32,105 bases of DNA from a virus. Numbering within the stretch: position 1 is the first letter of the stretch; every line of letters starts with the position of its first letter. The notes under the pieces are model-generated. The model saw only the letters and a program-made list of their open reading frames with translations, had not been told where the DNA came from and made no database searches. Of this stretch, positions 5,232 to 32,105 are shown in pieces. The stretch is from IMG/VR virus record IMGVR_UViG_3300030451_000379, positions 1 to 32,105 of that record; one strand, written 5' to 3'. The translations under genes were made by a program, and so were the position numbers.

Positions 5232-5530
5232 GAAAGAAAAAAATACAAGTGCCTACAAGAGCAGAAGGAGACCCAACAGGTCAGACACAGATGTTGCAAG
5301 AACAAGTAGATGCAGTATCTCCAGGACAAGAAGCAGCTTTACCTGAAGCACCTATACGTACTGCACAACCACAACCTGTTCAAGATATATTTGCTACACC
5401 TTCACAAAAATTACAAGAACCAGGTAATGAGTTGGGAGAAAACGAAGCAATGTTTACTGCTGACAACGATATTGAAATTGTAAAGGCAATTTTACTGGAG
5501 AAATTTCCATCACTAACAAGTAGGTTCTAA
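5225..5530 (+). CDS. 101-residue Gln/Pro-rich protein, unknown function
   Basis: Starts 7 bases before the preceding stop, with GAGGA about eight bases upstream, and its stop forms TAATG with the giant gene. It begins basic (MVRKKKIQVPTR), has a disordered-looking middle rich in Gln, Pro, Ala and Glu (about residues 15-70), and ends in a predicted helix (DIEIVKAILLEKFPSLTSRF, 82-101). The layout of a disordered tether with a terminal helix is seen in small head proteins and scaffolding-like peptides, but no family is recognised. The tight coupling on both sides shows that it is expressed with the portal and the giant virion protein. Confidence 0.75.
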   Translation: MVRKKKIQVPTRAEGDPTGQTQMLQEQVDAVSPGQEAALPEAPIRTAQPQPVQDIFATPSQKLQEPGNELGENEAMFTADNDIEIVKAILLEKFPSLTSRF

Positions 5531-8500
5531 TGGCTTCTTATTATCTCAAATGGGGAGAAGAAAGATTAGAAGATAAATACTATCAAGATGCTCAAAAACA
5601 ATCTATTGATGTGCAAAAAAGTATTCTTGGAGATGATGGTATAGATGCTTTAGCTGATAAAACTACAACTTTAAAAGGTATGAATCCTTTTGAATCAGAT
5701 GATTTAGCTATGGCTTCAGCAACTTTAAACCTTACAAACCAACAATATTACAATTTGTGGACACAAACAAAACCACAACAATATTATTATTCAAACGGAG
5801 AAACATCTCCTACAGTAGAATTTTCTAAAAAGTTTTTTGAAAGAATTAAAGACGCAGTAAACAACACAAAAGAAATACAAAGACAAACACAGTTAGATTT
5901 ATTTGGAGAAAACCAAATTAGAAAAAGCACTGTAATAAATGCTGCATTGGTAGCACTTAACTCTATATTTGAAACAGGTAGTACGTTTTTAGTTAACACT
6001 ATTGCATTAGAACAAAAAGCATATCAAGCAGAATGGGCTGAAAGTTTAGGATTAAATATAGATAGGGACTTTGCAAGATATGTAGGAGACAAAGACACAG
6101 AAAAAAATGAAGTACCTTTAGGAATAAAAATAAAATCTTTTGGAGCAGGTGTTAAATCTTTACTTATCAATGCAGATAGACAACAAAATAATTTAATAAA
6201 CAATATTTTAAATAACGAAACAGTGGCTCAAGCACCTTACATATCAGATAGAGCAAGAAATTATCTTATGAGCAAAAATCTTATAGATGATTTAGGAAAT
6301 CCTATGTTGCAAAAATCTGATTTGCAAGTTGTCCAGGAAGCATTTCCTGATGTTTTATCAGAACAAATAAAAATATTAACTGGTGGTGTAGAGAGAAAGT
6401 TAACTCTTAATGAATCAGTAGAAGTATATCAAATGGCTTTTAATGAAATACTTGGAGGAGGTATTGGTCAAGAAGGATTAGCAGGATGGTTTGGTCGTGG
6501 AGAATATTTAGACCAAGCAGAAGAAACAAGAGAAGGTTTTAAAAAAGCAAGCATTGCATCTAACTTTGGAGACTTAGTTAGATATACATTTACTGGTTCT
6601 TTATCAGGAGAATACAGCCCAAAGATGGCAGTAAGTCAAGATATACAAGAACAAGCAGACGTAGATTTATTTTTACTACAGTCAGCATACGATGTAGGTT
6701 CTATAACAAAAGAAGATTATGAGTTAGCAAAAACAAAAATAGAAGAGATAGAACAAAATGCACTTAGTGATATGGAGTTTGACCCTAAGCACGGATTTAA
6801 CTCTTGGATAGGTTTTACTACTAACTTAATTGGAATGATAAAGACTGACCCTTTTATCATGTCAAGCAAAGGTGTAGGAGTTGGTGGTAGAGGAGTTGCT
6901 AGCGAAGAAGTATTAACAGGTGTTGGTAAACAACTTGATGAGCATTTAAAAGCAGGAGGAACTGCTGCAGATTTTTTTGCTGAAGGACAAGACGATGCTA
7001 TAAGAATACTTGCTGACAAAGTACAAGTATTAGCAGAAGCAGATGCACCTTTGTTTAGTGAACTTACTATGAGAGGTTTTAGTCCTGAAGTTGCATATCG
7101 TATAGTAGATAATCCTGTAAATAATCCACAAGGTTATTTTGATATTATTAAAGACTCTTTGACTAGAGGTTATATATCAGACATAAGAGTAAACGGAAAG
7201 ATGAGTTCTAATGCAAAAGACTTCCATTTACAGCCAAAAGTATTTAGTGATAACTTCTTAGACAATATAGCCGATACTATGACAGGAAATACTACTACTG
7301 CAAACTACATTAGAGGTGGTGGCACAAAAGCAAAAGGTAAAATTAGAACAGCTACATCTAGTGCAAAAGATATATTTTTAGGCACCGATATTAGGTTACC
7401 TTCAAGACCATTTGCTTTTTTAACAGATACATCAAGGTCTGTTGACACATTTGTAAAGACAGGAAGAATGATGAGTGTTCCTACACCAATCATAGAAGAT
7501 TTGTCTAAAAAGTTTTATATAGCAATACAAGATAAAAATTATAAACTAGCTCAAAGCATATATTATGACGAGTTAGTTATGAGAGAAGGTGCTATACAGT
7601 TAAAAGCAACATTCGGTTTATCAGACAAAGAGTTGCAATTATTTTTTAGAGAACACTTAGATGATGTAAGAGGATTTAGTGACAGGGGTAAAACGTATAG
7701 ACCTGCACAAAGTTCTAAATATTATGATGATGATTTTGTAGACCCATTTGTAAAAGCACAGTATGCAGACCAAATAATTAATGAAGAAGAGTTAGTGCAA
7801 TGGTCACAAAAAGCTCTAGGTATGGCAGGACAGGCAATGGATTTATCAATAAACATTCCTGATTTAAGAGCTACATTACGCCATACAGGTATAAGAAGAA
7901 GATTACGAAACAAACTCGTAGGTTCTAATCAAGTAGATGAAAGCATAGCATTAATACGTGCAGAAGCAGACAAAGGAGTCAAAGGAACATTTTTTGACCC
8001 TGACACACCACTAGGACAAATTACAAAAGGTGCATTTGATGATTTGCCTGATGAAAGTTTCTTATATAAAAAATTAGTAATGGATGTGCCTTCTGCATTA
8101 GAAACAGGACTGTTTACTTTTATATCAAGAGTTTGGATGCCATTACAGTTAATAACACGTATTGCATTCCCACTTAAAATAACTACAGACGGTATGTTAA
8201 GAGTATCTACAAAAGGTTTAGCTTCTATATTTAGAGACCCTGCAGAATACATGAAGATGATATTTAATGACCCTGACGGTCTTATGATACGTTACTTAGA
8301 AAGTAAAGGTATTGATGTATCTCCTCTTACAAGTTTGCGTGGACCATTTAGAGTTACTAAACCAATACAAGGTGGTACTTTATCAGAAAAACTACCACTT
8401 AAATATAGAAAAACATTAGGTGCTTTGACTGAAGGTAACTCAGAATTTGGTGTGCCTGAAGTGCGTGATTTGTACGAAAGAGACCCAAAGTTTACTTCTG

Positions 8501-11500
8501 TATTTAGAAAAGACAATGGTGTTTGGGTTGATATAGAAAAAACAGGAAGAAAGAATGTAGCACAAACAGACGGTAGTGTTTTAGCTTTTGATTTAGATAA
8601 TGACTATATAGAAGCGTATATTGATTATCTAATTACACAAATGGCACATGACCCGTTTATGCCTATTGTTGCAGGTGCTATGAGACAAGGTTTGTCTGAT
8701 GCAGATATTGTAAAAGCAATACAAGACAATAAATACTTAATGGATGAAATAGCTGCTCTTAACAGAAAAATTATGTCAAGACAAAACGTAGATGGTAGAG
8801 CAAACAATATTGTTGTAATTAAAAATGAAAAAGACTTTTTAGATTTTGTCAAACATCATCGTATGACTATAAATAATTTTACAGGAGCATCTGATGAACT
8901 TATAGAAGTTATTGCACAAGGTAAAGTTGGCAAAATAGATGTAAGAGATTTTGAAGTATTAAGAACAATAAATTCACAAAGAATAAAAAATACTTTAACT
9001 CCAATTATAAATAAGAACTCAGCAGAGTTACCTATAACAGTTCCTGGACTAGAAAAAATATCAAGTAAAGGAATTATAAATAATTTTAAAGCATTTACAG
9101 ACGCATTGTTTTTTACAGTAGGTCAGTCAGAAGCAGCACTTGTACGTATTCCAACATTTAAGCAAGCATACTTACATTACGTAGATGCCAATATGATATT
9201 TGCTCAAAGAAATGCTTTAGCAGAAATGTTAGAAAATCATTTTGACCCAAACAAAGCTATAAATTTATCTGATGAAATGGTTGAAAAAGCAAAACGATTA
9301 CTTGCAGATAAAAAACTAGACGCAGAAGAGATAGATAGTGTTATGTCAAAGATTGTAAAACAATCTGTTGTAGCTAAAGACGATAATTTAACTATTCTTG
9401 CGTATCATTCTAACGGTATACATACACCTAGAGTTTTAGGTGCAACAAACAAACCACAGTTAGATTTACAAGTTAACTTACAAAATGCAGAAAGAAGTGC
9501 TTACGTTACAGATAAAAATATTGCAAACATTAGATTAGGAGATGAGAATACAAAGATTGGTACATACTACTCAAATGTAAACAAACAAGAAGTAGTTTTA
9601 AACGGTAAGTTAACATCAGAACAACAAAACACATTGCGTAAAGTATTAGTAGAACATTATGGTCCTAATACAAAAAAGAATGTTGATGAAGTTATAAAAG
9701 ATTTTAAGAGTTTTTTAAAGGACAATCCTACACCTAACACAAAAGAACTTAGAAGTTTGTTAAAACTAGGAAATGTTAAGTATGAAGATACAGTAGCCAT
9801 TGCACAACGTGGTGGTTTAAGTTCTTTCTTAGATGAAAAAACAGGAAGGTTTGTTATAAACAATCCAAAACAAAGTCCTATTGTTCAGGAATTAACTGAG
9901 CTAGATTATCACATGGTGTTAGATAACAACAATGTAAGAACAGATATAACACGTAACATGACATACGATGATTTAGATAGAAGAGCAGCAGAAGCAGCAT
10001 TTGAAGTACACAATAGATTGTTGTACAACTTGTTAGAAAGAGGTTACGTAGCTGAAGCATACAGAGTAGGACTGCCATTCTTTGAAGCATATAGAGAAGT
10101 TTTAGGTAGATGGTTTCAACTAGGAACAACAAATACAAGAGCAGCAGCACAAGTTGCATTTGCTTATAGAAAAGGTTTAGAAGAAAACTTAATATACAAA
10201 GATAAGTTTGGAGAAAACTATTTAATTATTCCTGTAGGTGGTACAGCCTTAGAGTCTTATGTACAAAGTGGAGGCGAAGGGTTGTGGAAAGATGACATGA
10301 GTATAGAAGATAGTGGCATTATTCTTAAAAGAAGTTTTCCATTGTCAGCATTAGGTGTTGCAGGTGGTGGTTTGTTTCCTCCACTTGGTCCAGTAGTTGC
10401 CATACCAGTAGGTTTAATTACAGCAGATAATCCTGAAGCTAGAAGATTATTAGAAAGAACTATATTTCAGTTTGGATTACCGTTTGAAGGTGGTGCAGGA
10501 GATTTAGGAGATTTAGTATCACAAGCTCTTATTGAAGAAACTATGCCTGCTACAGGTAAAAATATATTAAATGCAGTAGCAGATAGATTAGGATTTGCAG
10601 GTGTTGACGAAGATTTATACATGTTAGCAACAACACAAGCAACACAGATAGCAGCAATGTTATTTCCTGAAGAGGTACAAGATTCAGAATTTTTGTTAAA
10701 TAAAGCAGCAATTATTAGAGATAACATTTATCAACTAAAAGCATGGGATAGAAACGTAAATCCATTAGTACCTAAGATGAATGTTTTGTATAGAGCAGAT
10801 TTAGAAGACAGCACATTTGAAGAATGGTATGGAAAAGAAGGAGAATCTAGTGGACTTGTATGGAATGGTTTTGTAGAGCTTTCTGTAATACATAGTTTTT
10901 GGCGAGATATGAAAATTGAATATGCAGTTACTATGGGTAAAAAAGAAGCAGACTTCCAGGCAACAAAAGATATTGTTAGATTTTTAGGATTAGATAAATA
11001 TTCTTTAGAAGATAGTTTTACTTCTGCATCTATGCAATTACAAGGTAAATCAATTAATGAAGAAGGTAAGTTGCCTATGACTAAACCTGAATACGATTTT
11101 TACTTAGAAGAAAAAGAATTGTTTGATGATTATGGTGGCAATGTTTTGTATTTGTTTGATGGCTTAGGTCAAGGAGAAATAGATTATTCAGGATACGGAA
11201 CACTTAAAGGATTAGGAACTATAACACCTAAAACTAAAGAAGAGTTTTATTATGCAAGTGCAACATACGCTGCATCTATTGTAGAGCGTGCTGCAAAAGC
11301 AGAAAAAGTAAGAAAGTATGAAGAAGCAGGACTAGGTCAACAGGCATTGAAAGCAGAACTAGCAAAAGTAGATATTGTTTTATCACAATTGTTTCCATTA
11401 GCTTATGGAGACCCAGTAACAAAAGCACAATTGTTAGATGATTTACCTGGTTATCAAGTAGGAAAAGGTGCAGATTATTCAGCAAATGCTGAACTAATTA

Positions 11501-11790
11501 CAGCTTTAGTAAATGACCCAAGAGCTGCAAAGTTTGAACTTACATCTGTTATAAAAGAATATACTGATTACAGAGATGATGTGCTAAAAGGTGTACAGTT
11601 AGCAGAAAAGAAAGTTACAAAGCAAGATGCTGCTGAATGGGTAGCTAATACTGATAGCGAAAAAGCACAAGCAATTAGAGATTTACTATATTTCCAGGCA
11701 TCAAAAATAATACAGAAAGAACCTATGTTTGGTGTTGTCTTTGAAGAAGTGTTCTATAATGAAGTAGTTAAGTACGGAGTTAATGAATAA
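5530..11790 (+). CDS. Giant virion protein, candidate internal or ejection protein
   Basis: 2086 residues in one uninterrupted frame, starting on a TAATG overlap. It is mostly predicted helical, with hydrophobic patches at about 859-883 (TGLFTFISRVWMPLQLITRI) and 1604-1631 (a Gly/Pro-rich run with GLFPPLGPVVAIP). There is no signal peptide and I recognise no catalytic motif. It lies directly after the portal and before a transglycosylase-like protein, which recalls the T7 internal core proteins (gp14-gp16) that leave the head and bridge the cell envelope during DNA ejection; in that system gp16 is also the giant. A tape measure is less likely because the tail genes downstream look podoviral. 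The WMPLQLITRIAFPLK patch resembles motifs I remember from giant proteins in actinophage contigs, a weak hint. Confidence 0.7.
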   Translation: MASYYLKWGEERLEDKYYQDAQKQSIDVQKSILGDDGIDALADKTTTLKGMNPFESDDLAMASATLNLTNQQYYNLWTQTKPQQYYYSNGETSPTVEFSKKFFERIKDAVNNTKEIQRQTQLDLFGENQIRKSTVINAALVALNSIFETGSTFLVNTIALEQKAYQAEWAESLGLNIDRDFARYVGDKDTEKNEVPLGIKIKSFGAGVKSLLINADRQQNNLINNILNNETVAQAPYISDRARNYLMSKNLIDDLGNPMLQKSDLQVVQEAFPDVLSEQIKILTGGVERKLTLNESVEVYQMAFNEILGGGIGQEGLAGWFGRGEYLDQAEETREGFKKASIASNFGDLVRYTFTGSLSGEYSPKMAVSQDIQEQADVDLFLLQSAYDVGSITKEDYELAKTKIEEIEQNALSDMEFDPKHGFNSWIGFTTNLIGMIKTDPFIMSSKGVGVGGRGVASEEVLTGVGKQLDEHLKAGGTAADFFAEGQDDAIRILADKVQVLAEADAPLFSELTMRGFSPEVAYRIVDNPVNNPQGYFDIIKDSLTRGYISDIRVNGKMSSNAKDFHLQPKVFSDNFLDNIADTMTGNTTTANYIRGGGTKAKGKIRTATSSAKDIFLGTDIRLPSRPFAFLTDTSRSVDTFVKTGRMMSVPTPIIEDLSKKFYIAIQDKNYKLAQSIYYDELVMREGAIQLKATFGLSDKELQLFFREHLDDVRGFSDRGKTYRPAQSSKYYDDDFVDPFVKAQYADQIINEEELVQWSQKALGMAGQAMDLSINIPDLRATLRHTGIRRRLRNKLVGSNQVDESIALIRAEADKGVKGTFFDPDTPLGQITKGAFDDLPDESFLYKKLVMDVPSALETGLFTFISRVWMPLQLITRIAFPLKITTDGMLRVSTKGLASIFRDPAEYMKMIFNDPDGLMIRYLESKGIDVSPLTSLRGPFRVTKPIQGGTLSEKLPLKYRKTLGALTEGNSEFGVPEVRDLYERDPKFTSVFRKDNGVWVDIEKTGRKNVAQTDGSVLAFDLDNDYIEAYIDYLITQMAHDPFMPIVAGAMRQGLSDADIVKAIQDNKYLMDEIAALNRKIMSRQNVDGRANNIVVIKNEKDFLDFVKHHRMTINNFTGASDELIEVIAQGKVGKIDVRDFEVLRTINSQRIKNTLTPIINKNSAELPITVPGLEKISSKGIINNFKAFTDALFFTVGQSEAALVRIPTFKQAYLHYVDANMIFAQRNALAEMLENHFDPNKAINLSDEMVEKAKRLLADKKLDAEEIDSVMSKIVKQSVVAKDDNLTILAYHSNGIHTPRVLGATNKPQLDLQVNLQNAERSAYVTDKNIANIRLGDENTKIGTYYSNVNKQEVVLNGKLTSEQQNTLRKVLVEHYGPNTKKNVDEVIKDFKSFLKDNPTPNTKELRSLLKLGNVKYEDTVAIAQRGGLSSFLDEKTGRFVINNPKQSPIVQELTELDYHMVLDNNNVRTDITRNMTYDDLDRRAAEAAFEVHNRLLYNLLERGYVAEAYRVGLPFFEAYREVLGRWFQLGTTNTRAAAQVAFAYRKGLEENLIYKDKFGENYLIIPVGGTALESYVQSGGEGLWKDDMSIEDSGIILKRSFPLSALGVAGGGLFPPLGPVVAIPVGLITADNPEARRLLERTIFQFGLPFEGGAGDLGDLVSQALIEETMPATGKNILNAVADRLGFAGVDEDLYMLATTQATQIAAMLFPEEVQDSEFLLNKAAIIRDNIYQLKAWDRNVNPLVPKMNVLYRADLEDSTFEEWYGKEGESSGLVWNGFVELSVIHSFWRDMKIEYAVTMGKKEADFQATKDIVRFLGLDKYSLEDSFTSASMQLQGKSINEEGKLPMTKPEYDFYLEEKELFDDYGGNVLYLFDGLGQGEIDYSGYGTLKGLGTITPKTKEEFYYASATYAASIVERAAKAEKVRKYEEAGLGQQALKAELAKVDIVLSQLFPLAYGDPVTKAQLLDDLPGYQVGKGADYSANAELITALVNDPRAAKFELTSVIKEYTDYRDDVLKGVQLAEKKVTKQDAAEWVANTDSEKAQAIRDLLYFQASKIIQKEPMFGVVFEEVFYNEVVKYGVNE

Positions 11791-25367: not shown

Positions 25368-26210
25368 ATGGTAGGACCAAGCTCATTCGGTTATCAAGTC
25401 TCAGGATTCGGTGGAGGTTCAGCTCCAAAACCTGATTTAGTAGTTTCATATTTAGTTGTAGCAGGTGGTGCCGGTGGTGCTACAGGTAATGACGCAGGTG
25501 GTGGAGGTGGAGCAGGTGGTTATCGTACATTTGCTGACCAAACACTCACTCCAGGCACAGCTTACGCAGTTGTAGTAGGTGCAGGTGGCAGCAGTGGTAG
25601 TGGAAATGGTAACAACTCAACTTTTCATAATAATTCATCATCTTATGGTGGTGCAGGTCGTGCCAATGCTAACGGTAACAATGGTGGTTCAGGTGGTGGA
25701 CCAGGTTGGCAAGGACAAACAGGTGGCTCAGGAAACGTTGGTGGATATTCTCCATCCGAAGGTAATAATGGTGGAAACCTTTACTTTGCAGGTGGTGGTG
25801 GAGGAGGTGCCAGTGGTGCCGGTGGTTTTGGAGGAACTGGTGGAGGAAACGGTGGTGCCGGTTCTCAATGGTTAGACTCTAACTACTACGCAGGTGGTGG
25901 TGGTGGAGGTGGCGACCATAACAGAAATGGTGGAGCTCAATCATCAGGTGGACAAGGTGGTGGAGGAAACGGACAAGGTGGTGGTCAAGGTTCAGCAGGT
26001 GCAGCTAACACCGGTGGTGGTGGTGGTGGCTCAAGAAGTCACAACAGCAAAGCCAGTTTCAGTGGTGGTTCAGGAGTTATAGGTTTAAAATATCCAAAAG
26101 AATATGTGTTAACAGCAGGTGCAGGAGTTACTATAAGTTCTGAAACTGTAGATGGAGATAGTAAATACGCTTACTGCACAGCAGGCAGTGGAAACGTTAG
26201 TTGGAGTTAA
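25368..26210 (+). CDS. Glycine-rich adhesin-like tail protein
   Basis: 280 residues, with Gly-rich runs from about 35 to 240 (GGGGGAGGYRTFADQTLTPG, GGGGGGASGAGGFGGTGGGN). The segment PDLVVSYLVVAGGAGG...ADQTLTPGTAYAVVVGAGG (25-85) matches the start of glycine-rich phage tail proteins. Repeated short Gly tracts separated by loops recall the polyglycine-II sandwich of T4-like gp38 adhesins (for example phage S16), where loops between Gly helices bind the receptor. The C-terminal 60 residues lose the Gly bias (SGVIGLKYPKEYVLTAGAGV). It starts three bases after the fibre stop. A distal adhesin or fibre cap is inferred. Confidence 0.75.
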   Translation: MVGPSSFGYQVSGFGGGSAPKPDLVVSYLVVAGGAGGATGNDAGGGGGAGGYRTFADQTLTPGTAYAVVVGAGGSSGSGNGNNSTFHNNSSSYGGAGRANANGNNGGSGGGPGWQGQTGGSGNVGGYSPSEGNNGGNLYFAGGGGGGASGAGGFGGTGGGNGGAGSQWLDSNYYAGGGGGGGDHNRNGGAQSSGGQGGGGNGQGGGQGSAGAANTGGGGGGSRSHNSKASFSGGSGVIGLKYPKEYVLTAGAGVTISSETVDGDSKYAYCTAGSGNVSWS

Positions 26211-26214
26211 TTAA

Positions 26215-26631
26215 ATGGCTCATTACGCTTTATTAGATGGAGACTCAATAGTCACACAAGTTATTACTGGTATTGATGAAGACGATACAAGCACTTTACC
26301 TTCTGAATTTTCATCATGGGAAGAATTTTATGGAGACCAACATGGTAAAACATGTAAAAGAACTTCATATAATACCGTAGGAGGAAGTCATCTTCTTAGT
26401 GGAACACCTTTTAGAGGAAACTATGCAGGTATAGGTATGAAGTATGATGCAAGTAATGACGTATTTTATGAACAACAACCTTATGCTAGTTGGACTTTAA
26501 ATACATCAACATGGGAATGGGAAGCTCCAGTTGCATATCCAACATTAACAGAGGAAGAACATACAGGAGACGAAGTAGTTAGTTATGAATGGGACGAAAG
26601 CGTAACTAATTGGGTTAGAAGAACTCCTTAA
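26215..26631 (+). CDS. Conserved tail-associated protein (PFRGNYAGIG type)
   Basis: 138 residues: MAHYALLDGDSIVTQVITGIDE, then SSWEEFYG, TSYNTVGGSHLLSGTPFRGNYAGIGMKYD, then QPYASWTLNTSTWEWEAPVAYP and a C-terminal YEWDESVTNWVRRTP. This ordered set of aromatic motifs is familiar from cyanophage and pelagiphage tail-fibre regions, where the protein is annotated only as structural or hypothetical. It lies last in the tail module. Fibre chaperone or tip subunit are both possible. Confidence 0.75.
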   Translation: MAHYALLDGDSIVTQVITGIDEDDTSTLPSEFSSWEEFYGDQHGKTCKRTSYNTVGGSHLLSGTPFRGNYAGIGMKYDASNDVFYEQQPYASWTLNTSTWEWEAPVAYPTLTEEEHTGDEVVSYEWDESVTNWVRRTP

Positions 26632-26650: not shown

Positions 26651-27343
26651 ATGACAACAAACATATATTGGTTTCTTATACAAAAAGAAGATTTGCCCCC
26701 TGCAATGTTGTACGAAGATGTACAATTTAAAAAAACAATAGTGCCTATATGTCCACAAACTGTTGCTTTAGACAAAAGAACATTAGTTATTAATATGCCA
26801 TTTAACTTAACATTACAAAGAAAAGAAGATGGTAGTTATTATGCAGAAAGCACAGAAGTAGTAGGTCAATCTTTATGGGAAGATAGACCTGTATTAGCAA
26901 TAGATACTGAAACTAAACTAAAAGGTTATGAAGAATACCCTATACTGCATATTAAAATACCATATATATTTCTTACTGAAAATAAAAATATAACTTATTA
27001 TTTACAAGGTCCTAAATCTAACACTAAACATAGTTTAAAAAATGTTATATTTGCAGAAGGTATGTTAAGTCCTGGACAATATGCAAGAGCAGTAGACGTA
27101 GCTATGATTATTCCTAATAACGAAAAGGTAACATTTGTTAAAGGAGAACCACTTGTTTATTTATATTTCAGTGATGATATTAATTTAAAAGAAATAATAC
27201 CTAATCAACCAATATTAAATTACATGACATCCATATACGGTGTTACTAATTATGTAAGAGGAGTTAGAAAAATATTTAAAAAAGCAAGCAGAAAATACCC
27301 TTACAAAGAATTAAAAAATTGTGAGATTGTAAATGCCGACTAG
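26651..27343 (+). CDS. Halogenase-associated family protein, copy 1 (unknown function)
   Basis: 230 residues with a strong AGGTGGA site. I do not recognise a named family. It shares with the two downstream proteins a Cys-Pro pair (C34-P35) followed by a short variable stretch and a proline (MPFNL), and a late strand ending in V-K-GEPL (165-168). The layout suggests a common beta-rich fold: PILHIKIPYIFLT (97-109) corresponds to the I-x-P-W/Y-F/Y-x-x-T strand of the others. It is the most divergent copy and lacks the N-terminal QPA-x-x-F-x-P-x-W motif. It overlaps the halogenase start by 11 bases, so it is surely co-expressed with it. Possible roles: partner, substrate carrier or enzyme of the same pathway. 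Confidence 0.7.
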   Translation: MTTNIYWFLIQKEDLPPAMLYEDVQFKKTIVPICPQTVALDKRTLVINMPFNLTLQRKEDGSYYAESTEVVGQSLWEDRPVLAIDTETKLKGYEEYPILHIKIPYIFLTENKNITYYLQGPKSNTKHSLKNVIFAEGMLSPGQYARAVDVAMIIPNNEKVTFVKGEPLVYLYFSDDINLKEIIPNQPILNYMTSIYGVTNYVRGVRKIFKKASRKYPYKELKNCEIVNAD

Positions 27344-28475
27344 ATTAGCAGTTATTGGCAAAGGAACAGCAGGTGCTATGGCTTATAATCATTTTGCAAA
27401 TTATACAAATTATGAAATAGATTGTTACTTTGACAGTACAAAAAAAGAACAAAGTGTAGGAGAAGGAACAACAATAAGTTTACCTAGAACACTACATCAT
27501 ACTATAGGTTTTGAATACTATATGTTACCTGAAGTAGATGGGCATTATAAAAATGGTATTGAATATATTGACTGGACTAATAAAAATTTTATGCACACAT
27601 TTCCTGCTCCTGACATATCTATGCACTTTAACGCAGTTAAATTACAAGAATATTTAAAAGATAAAAATAAAAATAGAGTAACTTTTAAAGATGTAAATGT
27701 AGAAAATATATATGATATAAATGCAGATTACATAATAGATTGTTCAGGCACTCCAAGTAATTATGCTGAACATAGTGTTGCAAAATATATACCAGTAAAC
27801 GCAGTTTACGTTAGACAATGTATGTGGGATTTCCCAAGATATGATTATACATTATGTATTGCTAGACCTTACGGATGGATATTTGGGATACCATTAAGAA
27901 ATAGAATTTCTTTTGGGTATTTGTATAACAATAAAATAAATAAATTAAAAGATGTTGAAGAAGATTTGTTAAATGTAATTGAATCATACAAGTTAAAAGA
28001 TAATTTAACAGAAGTGCAAGGCAAAGCACAGTTTAAAAATTACTATAGAAAAGAAAATTTTTATGAAAGAATTACGTACAACGGTAATGCTTCGTTTTTC
28101 TTAGAGCCTATGGAAGCTACCAGTTTAACTACAGTAGACAACATTAACAGAAAAGTATTTGATATATTAGAAAATAATGCAGATTACAACACACAAAATA
28201 TATGGTATAAAGAAAAATTTAAAGAACTTCAAGATATTATTGTGATGCACTACTTAGGTGCAACTAAATATGACACAGAGTTTTGGGACTATGCAAAAGA
28301 ATTAGCACAAGATTGTTTAAGCAATACATCATACAGATTTAAAGATATACTTAAAAATGTACACGATAATAATTACGAATTAGATGATGATTATGGTGTA
28401 TGGGGAATGCACAGTTTTAAACAAAACATATATTCTATGAATATATTAAAAGCATTGGAGGATTTAAATGTTTAA
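27333..28475 (+). CDS. Flavin-dependent tryptophan halogenase-like protein
   Basis: 380 residues. FAD-binding G-x-G-x-x-G is VIGKGTAGAMA (residues 7-17), in the form usual for this family. SVGEGTTISLP (41-51) and HYKNGIEYIDW (71-81) follow, with Lys73 where the catalytic lysine of PrnA (Lys79) is expected. The halogenase signature W-x-W-x-I-P appears as W182-I-F184-G-I186-P187, so the second Trp is Phe. FFLEPMEATS (255-264) matches the family's F-L-E-P-L-E-S-T-S segment that carries the active-site Glu. At 380 residues it is shorter than PrnA or RebH (about 530), mainly at the C-terminus. These enzymes chlorinate, brominate or iodinate aromatic substrates with FADH2, O2 and halide; a cyanophage homologue (VirX1) is reported to iodinate. 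No flavin reductase is nearby. Substrate unknown. Confidence 0.85.
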   Translation: MPTRLAVIGKGTAGAMAYNHFANYTNYEIDCYFDSTKKEQSVGEGTTISLPRTLHHTIGFEYYMLPEVDGHYKNGIEYIDWTNKNFMHTFPAPDISMHFNAVKLQEYLKDKNKNRVTFKDVNVENIYDINADYIIDCSGTPSNYAEHSVAKYIPVNAVYVRQCMWDFPRYDYTLCIARPYGWIFGIPLRNRISFGYLYNNKINKLKDVEEDLLNVIESYKLKDNLTEVQGKAQFKNYYRKENFYERITYNGNASFFLEPMEATSLTTVDNINRKVFDILENNADYNTQNIWYKEKFKELQDIIVMHYLGATKYDTEFWDYAKELAQDCLSNTSYRFKDILKNVHDNNYELDDDYGVWGMHSFKQNIYSMNILKALEDLNV

Positions 28476-29220
28476 AAAAGAAAATCCATTGGTAGAATTT
28501 AGCACACCATTCAAAGGGTTAGAAAAAATACCTAGTTGTAGACCACAACCTGCTAAAAATTTTATACCAAAATGGTTTGAAAACTTAAGTCCTACTATAG
28601 ATGTCATACCTGATACTAGAAAAAATATACTTAGAGAATTAGATACAGTAGAAGATAGCGTAGGTAGATTAAAACCTAAAATGAAAACCGTAAAAACTTG
28701 TCCTAGTTTTGCTATGTTATTTCATAGTGGATGGGTAATACCTGCACATACAGATATGTATTTAAGGTGGGATGCACAGGGAGGTTATGCTTGGGAAACA
28801 CCTTATGAAAAATATGAAATACAAATACACGATGATGAACAAATGGTAAATCATTTACCTCCTGCTGCTAATGCGTCAAAAGTATTTAAAATAATAAGTC
28901 CTTGGTTTGTAAAGACTGCACCTGGATATAGTATGTATCAATTGCCTATGTTTTATCACTATAATCCTGATTGGTATATTCCTTTTGGTGTATTAGAAAC
29001 AGATAAACACCCTGTGCTTAACCATCAAGTAATAATGACCACTGATAAATATGAAGTAGTTATTAAACAAGGAGAACCATTAGCACATTATTTACCTTTT
29101 AAACGTGAAGAGTACGATATGAATATAGTTCCCTGGACTAATAAATGGGATGACCTTGTAGAAGAAAATGTAGTAAAAATACATGGTAAGTTTCGTGGAG
29201 GTTATTACAAAAATGTCTAA
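28468..29220 (+). CDS. Halogenase-associated family protein, copy 2 (unknown function)
   Basis: 250 residues, GGAGG (28457-28461) before the ATG, starting 8 bases before the halogenase stop. Motifs shared with copy 3: RPQPAKNFIPKWFENL (25-40), C78-P79, G-x-V-x-P-x-x-x-D, KIISPWFVKT (141-150) and QGEPL (201-205). This copy alone has His94-x-Asp96 after the Cys-Pro segment, with later histidines (H164, H186), which could be an iron-binding facial triad as in 2-oxoglutarate or cupin oxygenases. That is speculation, because the other copies lack the His. No membrane or signal segment. It is probably a cytosolic enzyme or binding protein of the halogenase pathway. Confidence 0.75.
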   Translation: MFKKENPLVEFSTPFKGLEKIPSCRPQPAKNFIPKWFENLSPTIDVIPDTRKNILRELDTVEDSVGRLKPKMKTVKTCPSFAMLFHSGWVIPAHTDMYLRWDAQGGYAWETPYEKYEIQIHDDEQMVNHLPPAANASKVFKIISPWFVKTAPGYSMYQLPMFYHYNPDWYIPFGVLETDKHPVLNHQVIMTTDKYEVVIKQGEPLAHYLPFKREEYDMNIVPWTNKWDDLVEENVVKIHGKFRGGYYKNV

Positions 29221-29947
29221 TTCTATAAAAGTATTTCCAAGAATTAAAGAGTATGAACCATTAGTGGAGTTGTACCCACCACAACCTGCCAATAAATTTT
29301 TACCTGATTGGTATAAAACACAAACTAAATTACAACGTGAAGACTCGGATACTTTGTTTGCTTCTAGTTGCCCTGCTATAAAAGATTACATGTTAGACGG
29401 AATAGTCTTTCCGTTGTGGTCTGATGTTGAAATAACTATAGAACATAAAGAACAAGTAACTTGGAATGTAAGAGTAGGAGATAGTTTAGCAATGCCTAAA
29501 GGACATCATTGGGTGCAAACACACCATAACTCACAGACAATAGGTATGAAATTAAATTCTTTAGAAAGTTTAGGAGCATTAAAATTTATACCTCCTTATT
29601 ACATTAAGACAGAAGATAACATTGGATTAGAATTTATAGATACGTTTTATCATTTCAGAAAAGATATAAGACTTTTACCTGGACAAGTGGAAACAGATAT
29701 ATGGAATGAAGTAAACTTTCCTTTTGAATTTTATAAAGATGTAGATGATTTAATAGGAACAACTATAAAAATAAAAGCAGGGACTCCTCTAATATTAGCT
29801 AAACCTTATGACATAAAAAGACACAAGTACGAAGTTGACGTACTTGAATACGATGATAAAGCCACTAAAGACTTTATAAAAAATGATGTATTAAATGCAG
29901 CTAGTTCTTATGATTGGACTACTTATAGGAAACGCTTTAGAAAATAA
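29213..29947 (+). CDS. Halogenase-associated family protein, copy 3 (unknown function)
   Basis: 244 residues from ATG 29213. An in-frame ATG exists at 29183, but the chosen start has GGAGG (29197-29201) 11 bases upstream and repeats the 8-base overlap seen at the halogenase / copy 2 junction. Shared motifs: PPQPANKFLPDWYKTQ (22-37), C53-P54, G-I-V-F-P-x-x-x-D, KFIPPYYIKT (124-133), and AGTPL (189-193) where copy 2 has QGEPL. Aromatic and histidine-rich GHHWVQTHH (97-105) is unique to this copy. The divergence between copies suggests separate substrates or subunits of a hetero-complex rather than recent duplicates. Last gene of the cassette; a promoter follows directly. Confidence 0.75.
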   Translation: MSNSIKVFPRIKEYEPLVELYPPQPANKFLPDWYKTQTKLQREDSDTLFASSCPAIKDYMLDGIVFPLWSDVEITIEHKEQVTWNVRVGDSLAMPKGHHWVQTHHNSQTIGMKLNSLESLGALKFIPPYYIKTEDNIGLEFIDTFYHFRKDIRLLPGQVETDIWNEVNFPFEFYKDVDDLIGTTIKIKAGTPLILAKPYDIKRHKYEVDVLEYDDKATKDFIKNDVLNAASSYDWTTYRKRFRK

Positions 29948-30271: not shown

Positions 30272-32105
30272 TGCTGCGAGTCTTATTCGCAGTTTTTTTA
30301 CTGCTACCATTACCTTTGTATGCTAATGAAAATAGTACAGATACTACAGATACTTCTACCACTACTACTACTAGCACTACTACTACTACTATCCCAGGAG
30401 AAACCGAAGAAGTAGAAACCTTTGATGGTCCACCTCCTGTAGAAGAAGAGGAAGTTTTAGAGGAAGAGACTACTACAACTACTTCTACTACTACAACAAC
30501 TGTACCTGAAACCTGGGAACAAGCTACTGACATAGTTTTACCTGAAGATGAATTAGATACACAAGGTAATGAAGTAGAAAATAATATTGTCATAGATGAT
30601 ATTTGGTCAGGTAAGTATGGATGTACAGATTTTTGTATGAACCTTGAATACCAACAACACGGTGGAGATGGTGCTAATTATTCTTTTGATTTGCCTGAAA
30701 CAATAACAGTAGATGAAGAAGAACTTGAAATAGAAATATACGAAGTAGGTTTTATTGTAGGTGCAGTAAACAATGAAGGTAGTGTAACTTACACACATAC
30801 AGATGAAACAACAGAAACAGATACAATATCTGTACAACAATGGGTATCAGATGAAACTATGTGGGAAGAATATATTTATAACATATACGATACCTTAGAT
30901 ACATTTATTGATTCTTTTACTATTTATCTAAATGATTGGTCTTTACTAGATGACATATCTTTCAAGTATGTTATGCCTACTACAACTACCACCACTACAA
31001 CAACTACTACAACTTTGCCACCTCCACCACCTCCACCACCTCCACCACCACCACCTAAAGTTGTGGTTGTAATGGATGATGGTTCTGAAGCAGAATATGA
31101 AACTTATGAAGTAGAAGATGGAACAGTAGAGCGTGACAATGAGCGTAAAGCTAATGAAGATAAGTTTGGTTGTTATATGACTGATGCACAAATAGAGCGA
31201 GGAGATTGTGACATACCTGAAGAAGAACCTGTAGAAGAAGTTATAATTGTAGAAGATGAAGAACAATACGATACCGAAAAAGAGTTTTACGAAGATGATG
31301 ATATGGTACTTGACCTGGAGTCTGAAGATGAAGTGGAAGAACTTGAATCTATCAAAGAAGAGGATATTGTTGAAGAGGAGTTTGAGATTGACCTTGAGGA
31401 ACTTGAAGAAGAGTTTAAATTTGAAGAGGAAGATTTTGAACTAGAAGAAATAATTATAGTTATTGAGGAAGAGGTTGAAGAAAATGAGTTGGACGAAAAG
31501 GTACTTCGAGATGACGACATCGGAGAGAAAGAAATTCAAGAAGAAGATGTCCAAGACGAAGTTATACAGGAAGTAAAAGTACTTAAAGAAGATATTGTAG
31601 AGGAACTTACAGAAGAAGAAGTAGCTTTAGAAGTAGCAGAGATAGAAGAAGTTGTAGAAGTTCCTATCGTAGAAGAAGATGCAACAGAAGAAGAAGTTGC
31701 TGAAGCTATAGAAGAATATGTAGAGGAATTAGAAACAGAAGAAGTCATAGAAGTTCTTGAAGAGGTCAATGATATTGGTGTGCAGGAACTAGAAAATGTA
31801 TCAGAAGAAGTACAAGAAGTTATCCAAGCAGTAGTAGAGGAAGCTATTGAAGACGTAGAAGAACTTACAGAAGAGCAAGTTGCAGTCGTAGCAGAAGTAT
31901 TACAAGTAGAAGAAGATGATGTTGAGATTATTGCAGAAGCAGTTAAAGAAGATGAAGTTGTAGCTGAAGCAGTAGAAGAGTATGTAGAGAGAGCAGTAGA
32001 AAACTCAGACGTAGAGAATTACACACTCGCTGATGTTGTCACAGAAGTAACTTATGAGGCGTTCCTCGAAAATCCTGTAGAAGTTTTTGTTGATTTAGAT
32101 TTTGA
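30271..32105 (+). CDS. Exported Thr/Pro-tract and Glu-rich protein, truncated by window edge
   Basis: The frame begins at ATG 30271 (TAATG overlap) and stays open for 611 codons to the right edge, so the C-terminus is missing. Residues 1-18 (MLRVLFAVFLLLPLPLYA) are a clear signal peptide. Then come Thr tracts (about 24-40 and 67-77), a globular part (about 80-232) with C118 and C122, a run of 12 Thr (237-248) followed by 13 Pro (250-262), a short segment with C301 and C313, and a very acidic, mostly helical part (315-611) full of E-E-V and V-E-E repeats ending ENYTLADVVTEVTYEAFLENPVEVF. The four cysteines could form disulfides outside the membrane. Thr/Pro tracts look like wall-spanning or glycosylated stalks. 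Role unknown: surface exclusion, envelope binding, or a lysis accessory are options. Confidence 0.8.
   Translation, partial: MLRVLFAVFLLLPLPLYANENSTDTTDTSTTTTTSTTTTTIPGETEEVETFDGPPPVEEEEVLEEETTTTTSTTTTTVPETWEQATDIVLPEDELDTQGNEVENNIVIDDIWSGKYGCTDFCMNLEYQQHGGDGANYSFDLPETITVDEEELEIEIYEVGFIVGAVNNEGSVTYTHTDETTETDTISVQQWVSDETMWEEYIYNIYDTLDTFIDSFTIYLNDWSLLDDISFKYVMPTTTTTTTTTTTTLPPPPPPPPPPPPPKVVVVMDDGSEAEYETYEVEDGTVERDNERKANEDKFGCYMTDAQIERGDCDIPEEEPVEEVIIVEDEEQYDTEKEFYEDDDMVLDLESEDEVEELESIKEEDIVEEEFEIDLEELEEEFKFEEEDFELEEIIIVIEEEVEENELDEKVLRDDDIGEKEIQEEDVQDEVIQEVKVLKEDIVEELTEEEVALEVAEIEEVVEVPIVEEDATEEEVAEAIEEYVEELETEEVIEVLEEVNDIGVQELENVSEEVQEVIQAVVEEAIEDVEELTEEQVAVVAEVLQVEEDDVEIIAEAVKEDEVVAEAVEEYVERAVENSDVENYTLADVVTEVTYEAFLENPVEVFVDLDF

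Follow-up and report, generated by a model that had tools for sequence, protein, structure and literature searches.

A marine phage cassette joins a short flavin halogenase homologue to three proteins of one family with a predicted dUTPase-like fold

What does a halogenase do in a virus of bacteria, and what are the proteins encoded beside it? To our knowledge, no natural substrate has been assigned to VirX1, a cyanophage enzyme reported to iodinate, or to other viral halogenases. The question is raised by a 32,105-base record of a marine virus of bacteria (the window). An initial annotation had noted there a cassette of four overlapping genes, a tryptophan halogenase-like flavoprotein and three members of one unrecognized family, and had proposed that they function as a unit. 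We computed the anatomy of this locus, the homology and predicted fold of its proteins, and the linkage of its genes.

Four overlapping genes occupy positions 26651 to 29947 of the plus strand, as first described, in the order subfamily B partner (P1), halogenase, subfamily A partner (P3), and subfamily A partner (P4) (Table 1). The overlaps are 11, 8, and 8 bases when P4 is taken from 29213. This start is most likely the right one, and not 29183, because a good ribosome-binding site, GGAGG (cgtggaggttattacaaaaATG), lies upstream of the ATG at 29213 and none lies upstream of 29183. The hairpin downstream is possibly the end of the cassette transcript, although terminator-like hairpins are no more numerous in this region than expected by chance. 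A search of the window for tRNAs and Rfam families was negative. An ORF of 2086 aa at positions 5530 to 11790 of the window had no PHROG or Pfam match.

Table 1. Features of the cassette and its surroundings (positions in the window)
Feature	Position	Strand	Basis or remark
Gly-rich tail/fiber-like protein	25368..26210	+	Pfam Gly_rich_2 PF21722, E 7e-14; directly upstream
Small conserved protein, phrog_7759	26215..26631	+	E 1e-38; between fiber gene and cassette
Partner P1, subfamily B, 230 aa, predicted dUTPase-fold family	26651..27343	+	Profile homology, AlphaFold2, Foldseek
Short flavin-dependent halogenase homologue, 380 aa	27333..28475	+	GKGTAG, K73, WIFGIP, LEPMEATS
Partner P3, subfamily A, 250 aa	28468..29220	+	phrog_7084, predicted dUTPase fold, pLDDT 92
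Partner P4, subfamily A, 244 aa from ATG 29213 (ORF opens 29183)	29213..29947	+	phrog_7084
Terminator-like hairpin and T tail	30273..30293	+	Two small ORFs after cassette

All three partners belong to one family. BLASTP relates P3 to P4 (1e-13), and both match the phrog_7084 profile (E = 2e-48 and 3e-31, respectively). P1 showed no significant BLASTP similarity to either, had no listed match to phrog_7084, matched only phrog_17480 weakly (E = 2.4e-5), and found no match in phage records by tblastn. A family-profile search resolved two subfamilies, A (P3 and P4) and B (P1). An early HMM scored P1 at 19.7 bits, against 10.8 for the best of 500 shuffles. However, a few B sequences remained in that model, so an HMM built from 86 A sequences and zero B sequences is the cleaner test of P1. 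With it, P1 scored 13.3 bits (E = 0.006), close P1 orthologues scored up to 24.7 bits (E = 2e-6), and B members reached E values down to 2e-7. A profile built from just four near-identical P1 sequences gave Prob 6.5% by hhalign; the deeper B alignment settled the kinship of the subfamilies, whose profiles match with Prob 96.5% and E = 9e-10. For contig search, an alignment of twelve sequences proved too diverse.

P1, P3, and P4 have a conserved core with the CP, I-x-P-(Y/W), and G-(E/T)-P-L motifs seen initially. The conserved Cys is present in 97% of the A-type sequences by weight, and CP is present in all B sequences. The shared motifs reflect homology and not chance, and the kinship of P1 is visible solely by profiles and structure.

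The single family proposed at first is thus borne out, but only P1 lies outside phrog_7084, and the label "unrecognized" needs qualification. P3 and P4 belong to that group, and a family homologue in S-CREM1 carries the GenBank name "triphosphate nucleotidohydrolase." All three partners are weakly related to DUF6065 (PF19541), with scores of 18.8 (P3), 12.3 (P4), and 11.4 bits (P1), below the curated cut-off of 26.6 bits. At E ≤ 0.05, 15 of 61 family members show this similarity; among the matches listed the best member reaches 26.4 bits, short of the cut-off. A second contig profile scan yielded nine bacterial DUF6065-like loci; the first had given zero bacterial relatives. DUF6065 has no record in the literature searched, nor does that literature describe these partners or connect them with halogenases, the VirX1 paper lying outside the scope of the search.

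We then considered the fold. An AlphaFold2 model of P3 from an alignment of 61 relatives had a pLDDT of 92 and a pTM of 0.86, and all 50 of its best solved structures were dUTPases or dCTP deaminases. Against viral models, uncharacterized phage homologues ranked first and dUTPases next. The P1 model, made from B sequences only (pLDDT 82), again had dCTP deaminase/dUTPase as its top Foldseek matches. For the two models, matches of this kind made up the whole or almost the whole of the top 50, mostly with Foldseek probabilities of 0.95 to 1.0. The E values are modest (1e-3 to 2e-2, with TM-scores by target up to about 0.65); therefore, what supports the fold is that the matches are nearly unanimous, that the two alignments were separate, and that the partners have weak profile matches, mostly to dUTPases. 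Among solved folds, that of dUTPase/dCTP deaminase is thus nearest to the models of both P1 and P3, in keeping with a single family, and the GenBank name of the S-CREM1 homologue agrees with it. Known members of this fold bind nucleotides, and dUTPases are trimers. However, dUTPase motifs II (PRSG/S) and V (RGxGGFG) occur in none of the 86 A members and none of the 15 B members. Because both motifs are missing from all 101 members, the partners are probably not dUTPases, and we rejected active dUTPases as an identity for them.

The second gene encodes a flavin halogenase-family protein, as initially recognized. It matches Trp_halogenase (PF04820) with E = 7e-31 and 107.9 bits, against a curated cut-off of 21. 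The GxGxxG dinucleotide-binding motif is GKGTAG at residue 9; K73, in YKNGI, aligns with a Lys that is invariant across 56 phage homologues; and EPMEA is intact at residue 258. The WxWxIP position reads WIFGIP, keeping the first Trp and the IP and replacing the second Trp by Phe. The enzyme is predicted to be an active halogenase. The earlier description needs one correction: the protein is a shortened form outside the VirX1 clade. In the alignment, VirX1 residues 100 to 161, 195 to 213, and 474 to 516 have no counterpart, and the cassette halogenase is therefore a compact form. Its own clade in the halogenase tree is supported and well separated from that of VirX1, and its length of 380 aa compares with about 530, so it does not belong to the VirX1 subgroup. 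Three partner-adjacent halogenase homologues on the opposite strand (L010:6946-7974, L040:4968-5978, and L044:3450-4541) have lost the canonical GxGxxG and WxWxIP but kept the catalytic lysine.

The pairing of halogenase and partner recurs in other phages. The protein in PDB 6qgm, VirX1, is identical to the product of L012:7278-8867 from cyanophage Syn10, and a 17-bp overlap joins its gene to a partner gene of subfamily A; the neighborhoods in S-CREM1 and P-TIM40 are similar. Among 54 non-redundant partner loci, a halogenase directly adjoins the partner in 24 and lies within the sequenced stretch in 26. In a sample of 49 partner-bearing viral contigs, which includes many related cyanophages and is seed-biased by one of two contig searches that started from partners already known near halogenases, the distance to a partner is at most 3 kb for 30 of the 41 halogenase copies. 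Uniform placement within the contig predicts 7.4, about one-fourth of the observed linkage. Kinship within the sample and the seed bias are partly answered because partner adjacency changes at least four times on the halogenase tree and the clade of the cassette halogenase is well separated from the VirX1 clade. Gene orders vary (B-H-A(-A), A-H-A, inverted H with A..A, and H-H-A), subfamily B is always accompanied by A (12/12 loci), and the halogenase and partner genes often overlap by 8 to 17 bases. In two partner-bearing contigs, L054 and L063, a long halogenase lies elsewhere, more than 3 kb off. A methyltransferase-like protein of about 157 aa is encoded between two partner genes at L010:8683-9156 and L040:6692-7168; the L010 copy has no Pfam match.

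The proposal of a functional unit therefore stands in part: the pairing recurs beside phage halogenases, including VirX1, but it is not obligate. The stretch examined holds no halogenase in 28 of the 54 partner loci. Halophage HF2 has a partner and no halogenase; the search that found its partner also turned up partner genes in relatives of HF2. Halogenases occur without a partner in S-PM2, Syn1, S-ShM2, S-SSM5, S-SSM7, S-B64, CP21, S-SCSM1, and AG-345-E15, and S-RIM4 and Sf-CH5 have both genes far apart. None of the nine bacterial DUF6065-like loci has a halogenase nearby. These partner-only and halogenase-only genomes led us to reject an obligate halogenase unit.

The surroundings of the partners are also patterned. 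The order Gly-rich gene, phrog_7759 gene, cassette is kept in five other loci (L004, L009, L032, L037, and L039), and Gly-rich tail-fiber genes often precede the modules. Counting up to six genes from the partner, 35 of the 54 loci have a halogenase or an Fe(II)/2-oxoglutarate oxygenase and 26 have a Gly-rich ORF; Pfam confirmed the oxygenases that we sampled, and some partner loci that lack a halogenase carry such oxygenases in its place. By its position, the Gly-rich fiber protein upstream of the cassette is a possible halogenase substrate. However, closeness to tail genes could reflect a mere insertion hotspot. In L030 and at L036:1186-5265, partners A and B lie near 2-oxoglutarate oxygenases and no halogenase is present. 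In a phage-like stretch of a bacterial assembly (L130:6469-8636), a Gly-rich fiber-like gene is followed directly by a subfamily A partner.

We tentatively favor, at somewhat less than even confidence, a reading in which the cassette is part of a broader phage oxidative-tailoring module of halogenases and Fe(II)/2-oxoglutarate oxygenases, where the dUTPase-fold partners would present the halogenase with its substrate, possibly a tail adhesin. The complex, its substrate, and the halogenation itself we infer. At the halogenase, O2, halide, and reduced FAD supplied by a host reductase would yield a lysine-guided hypohalous species. The partners, perhaps as a (hetero)trimer like that of dUTPases, would hold the substrate over the trimmed, open active site. 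The targets may be tail adhesin proteins or a surface-related product made late in infection. Substrate presentation is suggested mainly because the pairing recurs, the active-site region is trimmed, and the cassette sits beside fiber genes. Against this reading we count the roughly half of partner loci without a halogenase, the many halogenases without partners, the bacterial DUF6065-like genes that stand apart, and the Phe in place of the second Trp of WxWxIP. The S-CREM1 virion proteome counts against it as well: its 14 proteins comprise four structural proteins, nine of unknown function, and one without a database match, and the text mentions no halogenase among them (PMC9964418).

The chief rival is a small-molecule pathway. 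Here the product modified by the halogenase and oxygenases would be a diffusible metabolite or one linked to capsule or sugar, and the partners would serve as enzymes for, or binders of, a nucleotide-like or activated intermediate. Earlier work has suggested that phage halogenases have antibiotic or secondary-metabolite roles (PMC9964418, PMC2984593, PMC7824862). Iyer and colleagues proposed that cyanophage clusters of a halogenase and 2OG oxygenases produce a halogenated secondary metabolite or decorate the capsule (PMC7824862), and in vitro VirX1 accepts many small aromatics as halogenation substrates (PMC8407142). The nucleotide binding of known dUTPase-fold members fits such a pathway. However, no further biosynthetic enzyme (carbamoyltransferase, sugar enzyme, or ligase) was recognized beside the cassette in the window, and the partners lack dUTPase motifs II and V. 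We regard this rival as possible but doubtful.

We consider it unlikely that the genes are independent cargo, auxiliary genes gathered in a tail-adjacent variable region. The partners would then do something of their own, such as binding a ligand or decorating the virion, and would not be physically linked to the halogenase. Partners that stand alone in HF2, in the 28 viral loci, and in bacteria speak for this account, as do halogenases alone in S-PM2, Syn1, S-ShM2, S-SSM5, S-SSM7, and others. It sits poorly with a linkage that is about four times the within-contig expectation and arises on several tree branches, and with frequent overlaps of 8 to 17 bases, and a hotspot does not easily explain direct adjacency in the inverted orders of L010 and L040. 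Finally, it is very unlikely that the flavoprotein no longer halogenates and acts on a macromolecule as another flavin monooxygenase or oxidase: WIFGIP, the loss of about 90 residues and of a C-terminal part, and the relatives without canonical GxGxxG point that way, but the protein has intact GKGTAG, K73, and EPMEA, and even its divergent relatives retain the catalytic Lys.

The tailoring-module reading has a wider form, which we think quite unlikely, in which phage halogenases including VirX1 form complexes with dUTPase-fold partners that present a dedicated macromolecule, for example the phage's own tail adhesin. If true, halogenation would be a new kind of virion modification, interchangeable with hydroxylation by the neighboring 2-oxoglutarate oxygenases. 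Because VirX1 also has a neighboring partner, a hidden accessory protein may be key to the natural role of viral halogenases. Experiments on the complex and the substrate can start directly from this partner family, which is conserved, co-translated, and identifiable in fold.

Among known systems, VirX1 and the cassette halogenase are both PF04820 proteins with the catalytic Lys and EPxE, and the VirX1 gene likewise overlaps a subfamily A partner gene. However, Syn10 has one partner whereas the cassette has three, and the enzymes (530 versus 380 aa) share 21% identity over aligned columns and fall in different tree clades. The short "tryptophan halogenase" of S-RIM4 (RW110999_041) is similar in length, with 387 aa and 41% identity, but its genome carries the partner gene far from the halogenase, unlike the cassette. 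DUF6065 resembles all three partners weakly, and its bacterial loci have no halogenase nearby. The P1 and P3 models have their nearest solved structures in the trimeric dUTPase/dCTP deaminase superfamily; the partners differ from it in being about 100 residues longer, with an extra N-terminal part that bears the conserved Cys-Pro. As for phrog_7084, a family without prior function that includes P3 and P4 and not P1, it gains a predicted fold and a link to halogenases and 2-oxoglutarate oxygenases near tail-fiber genes.
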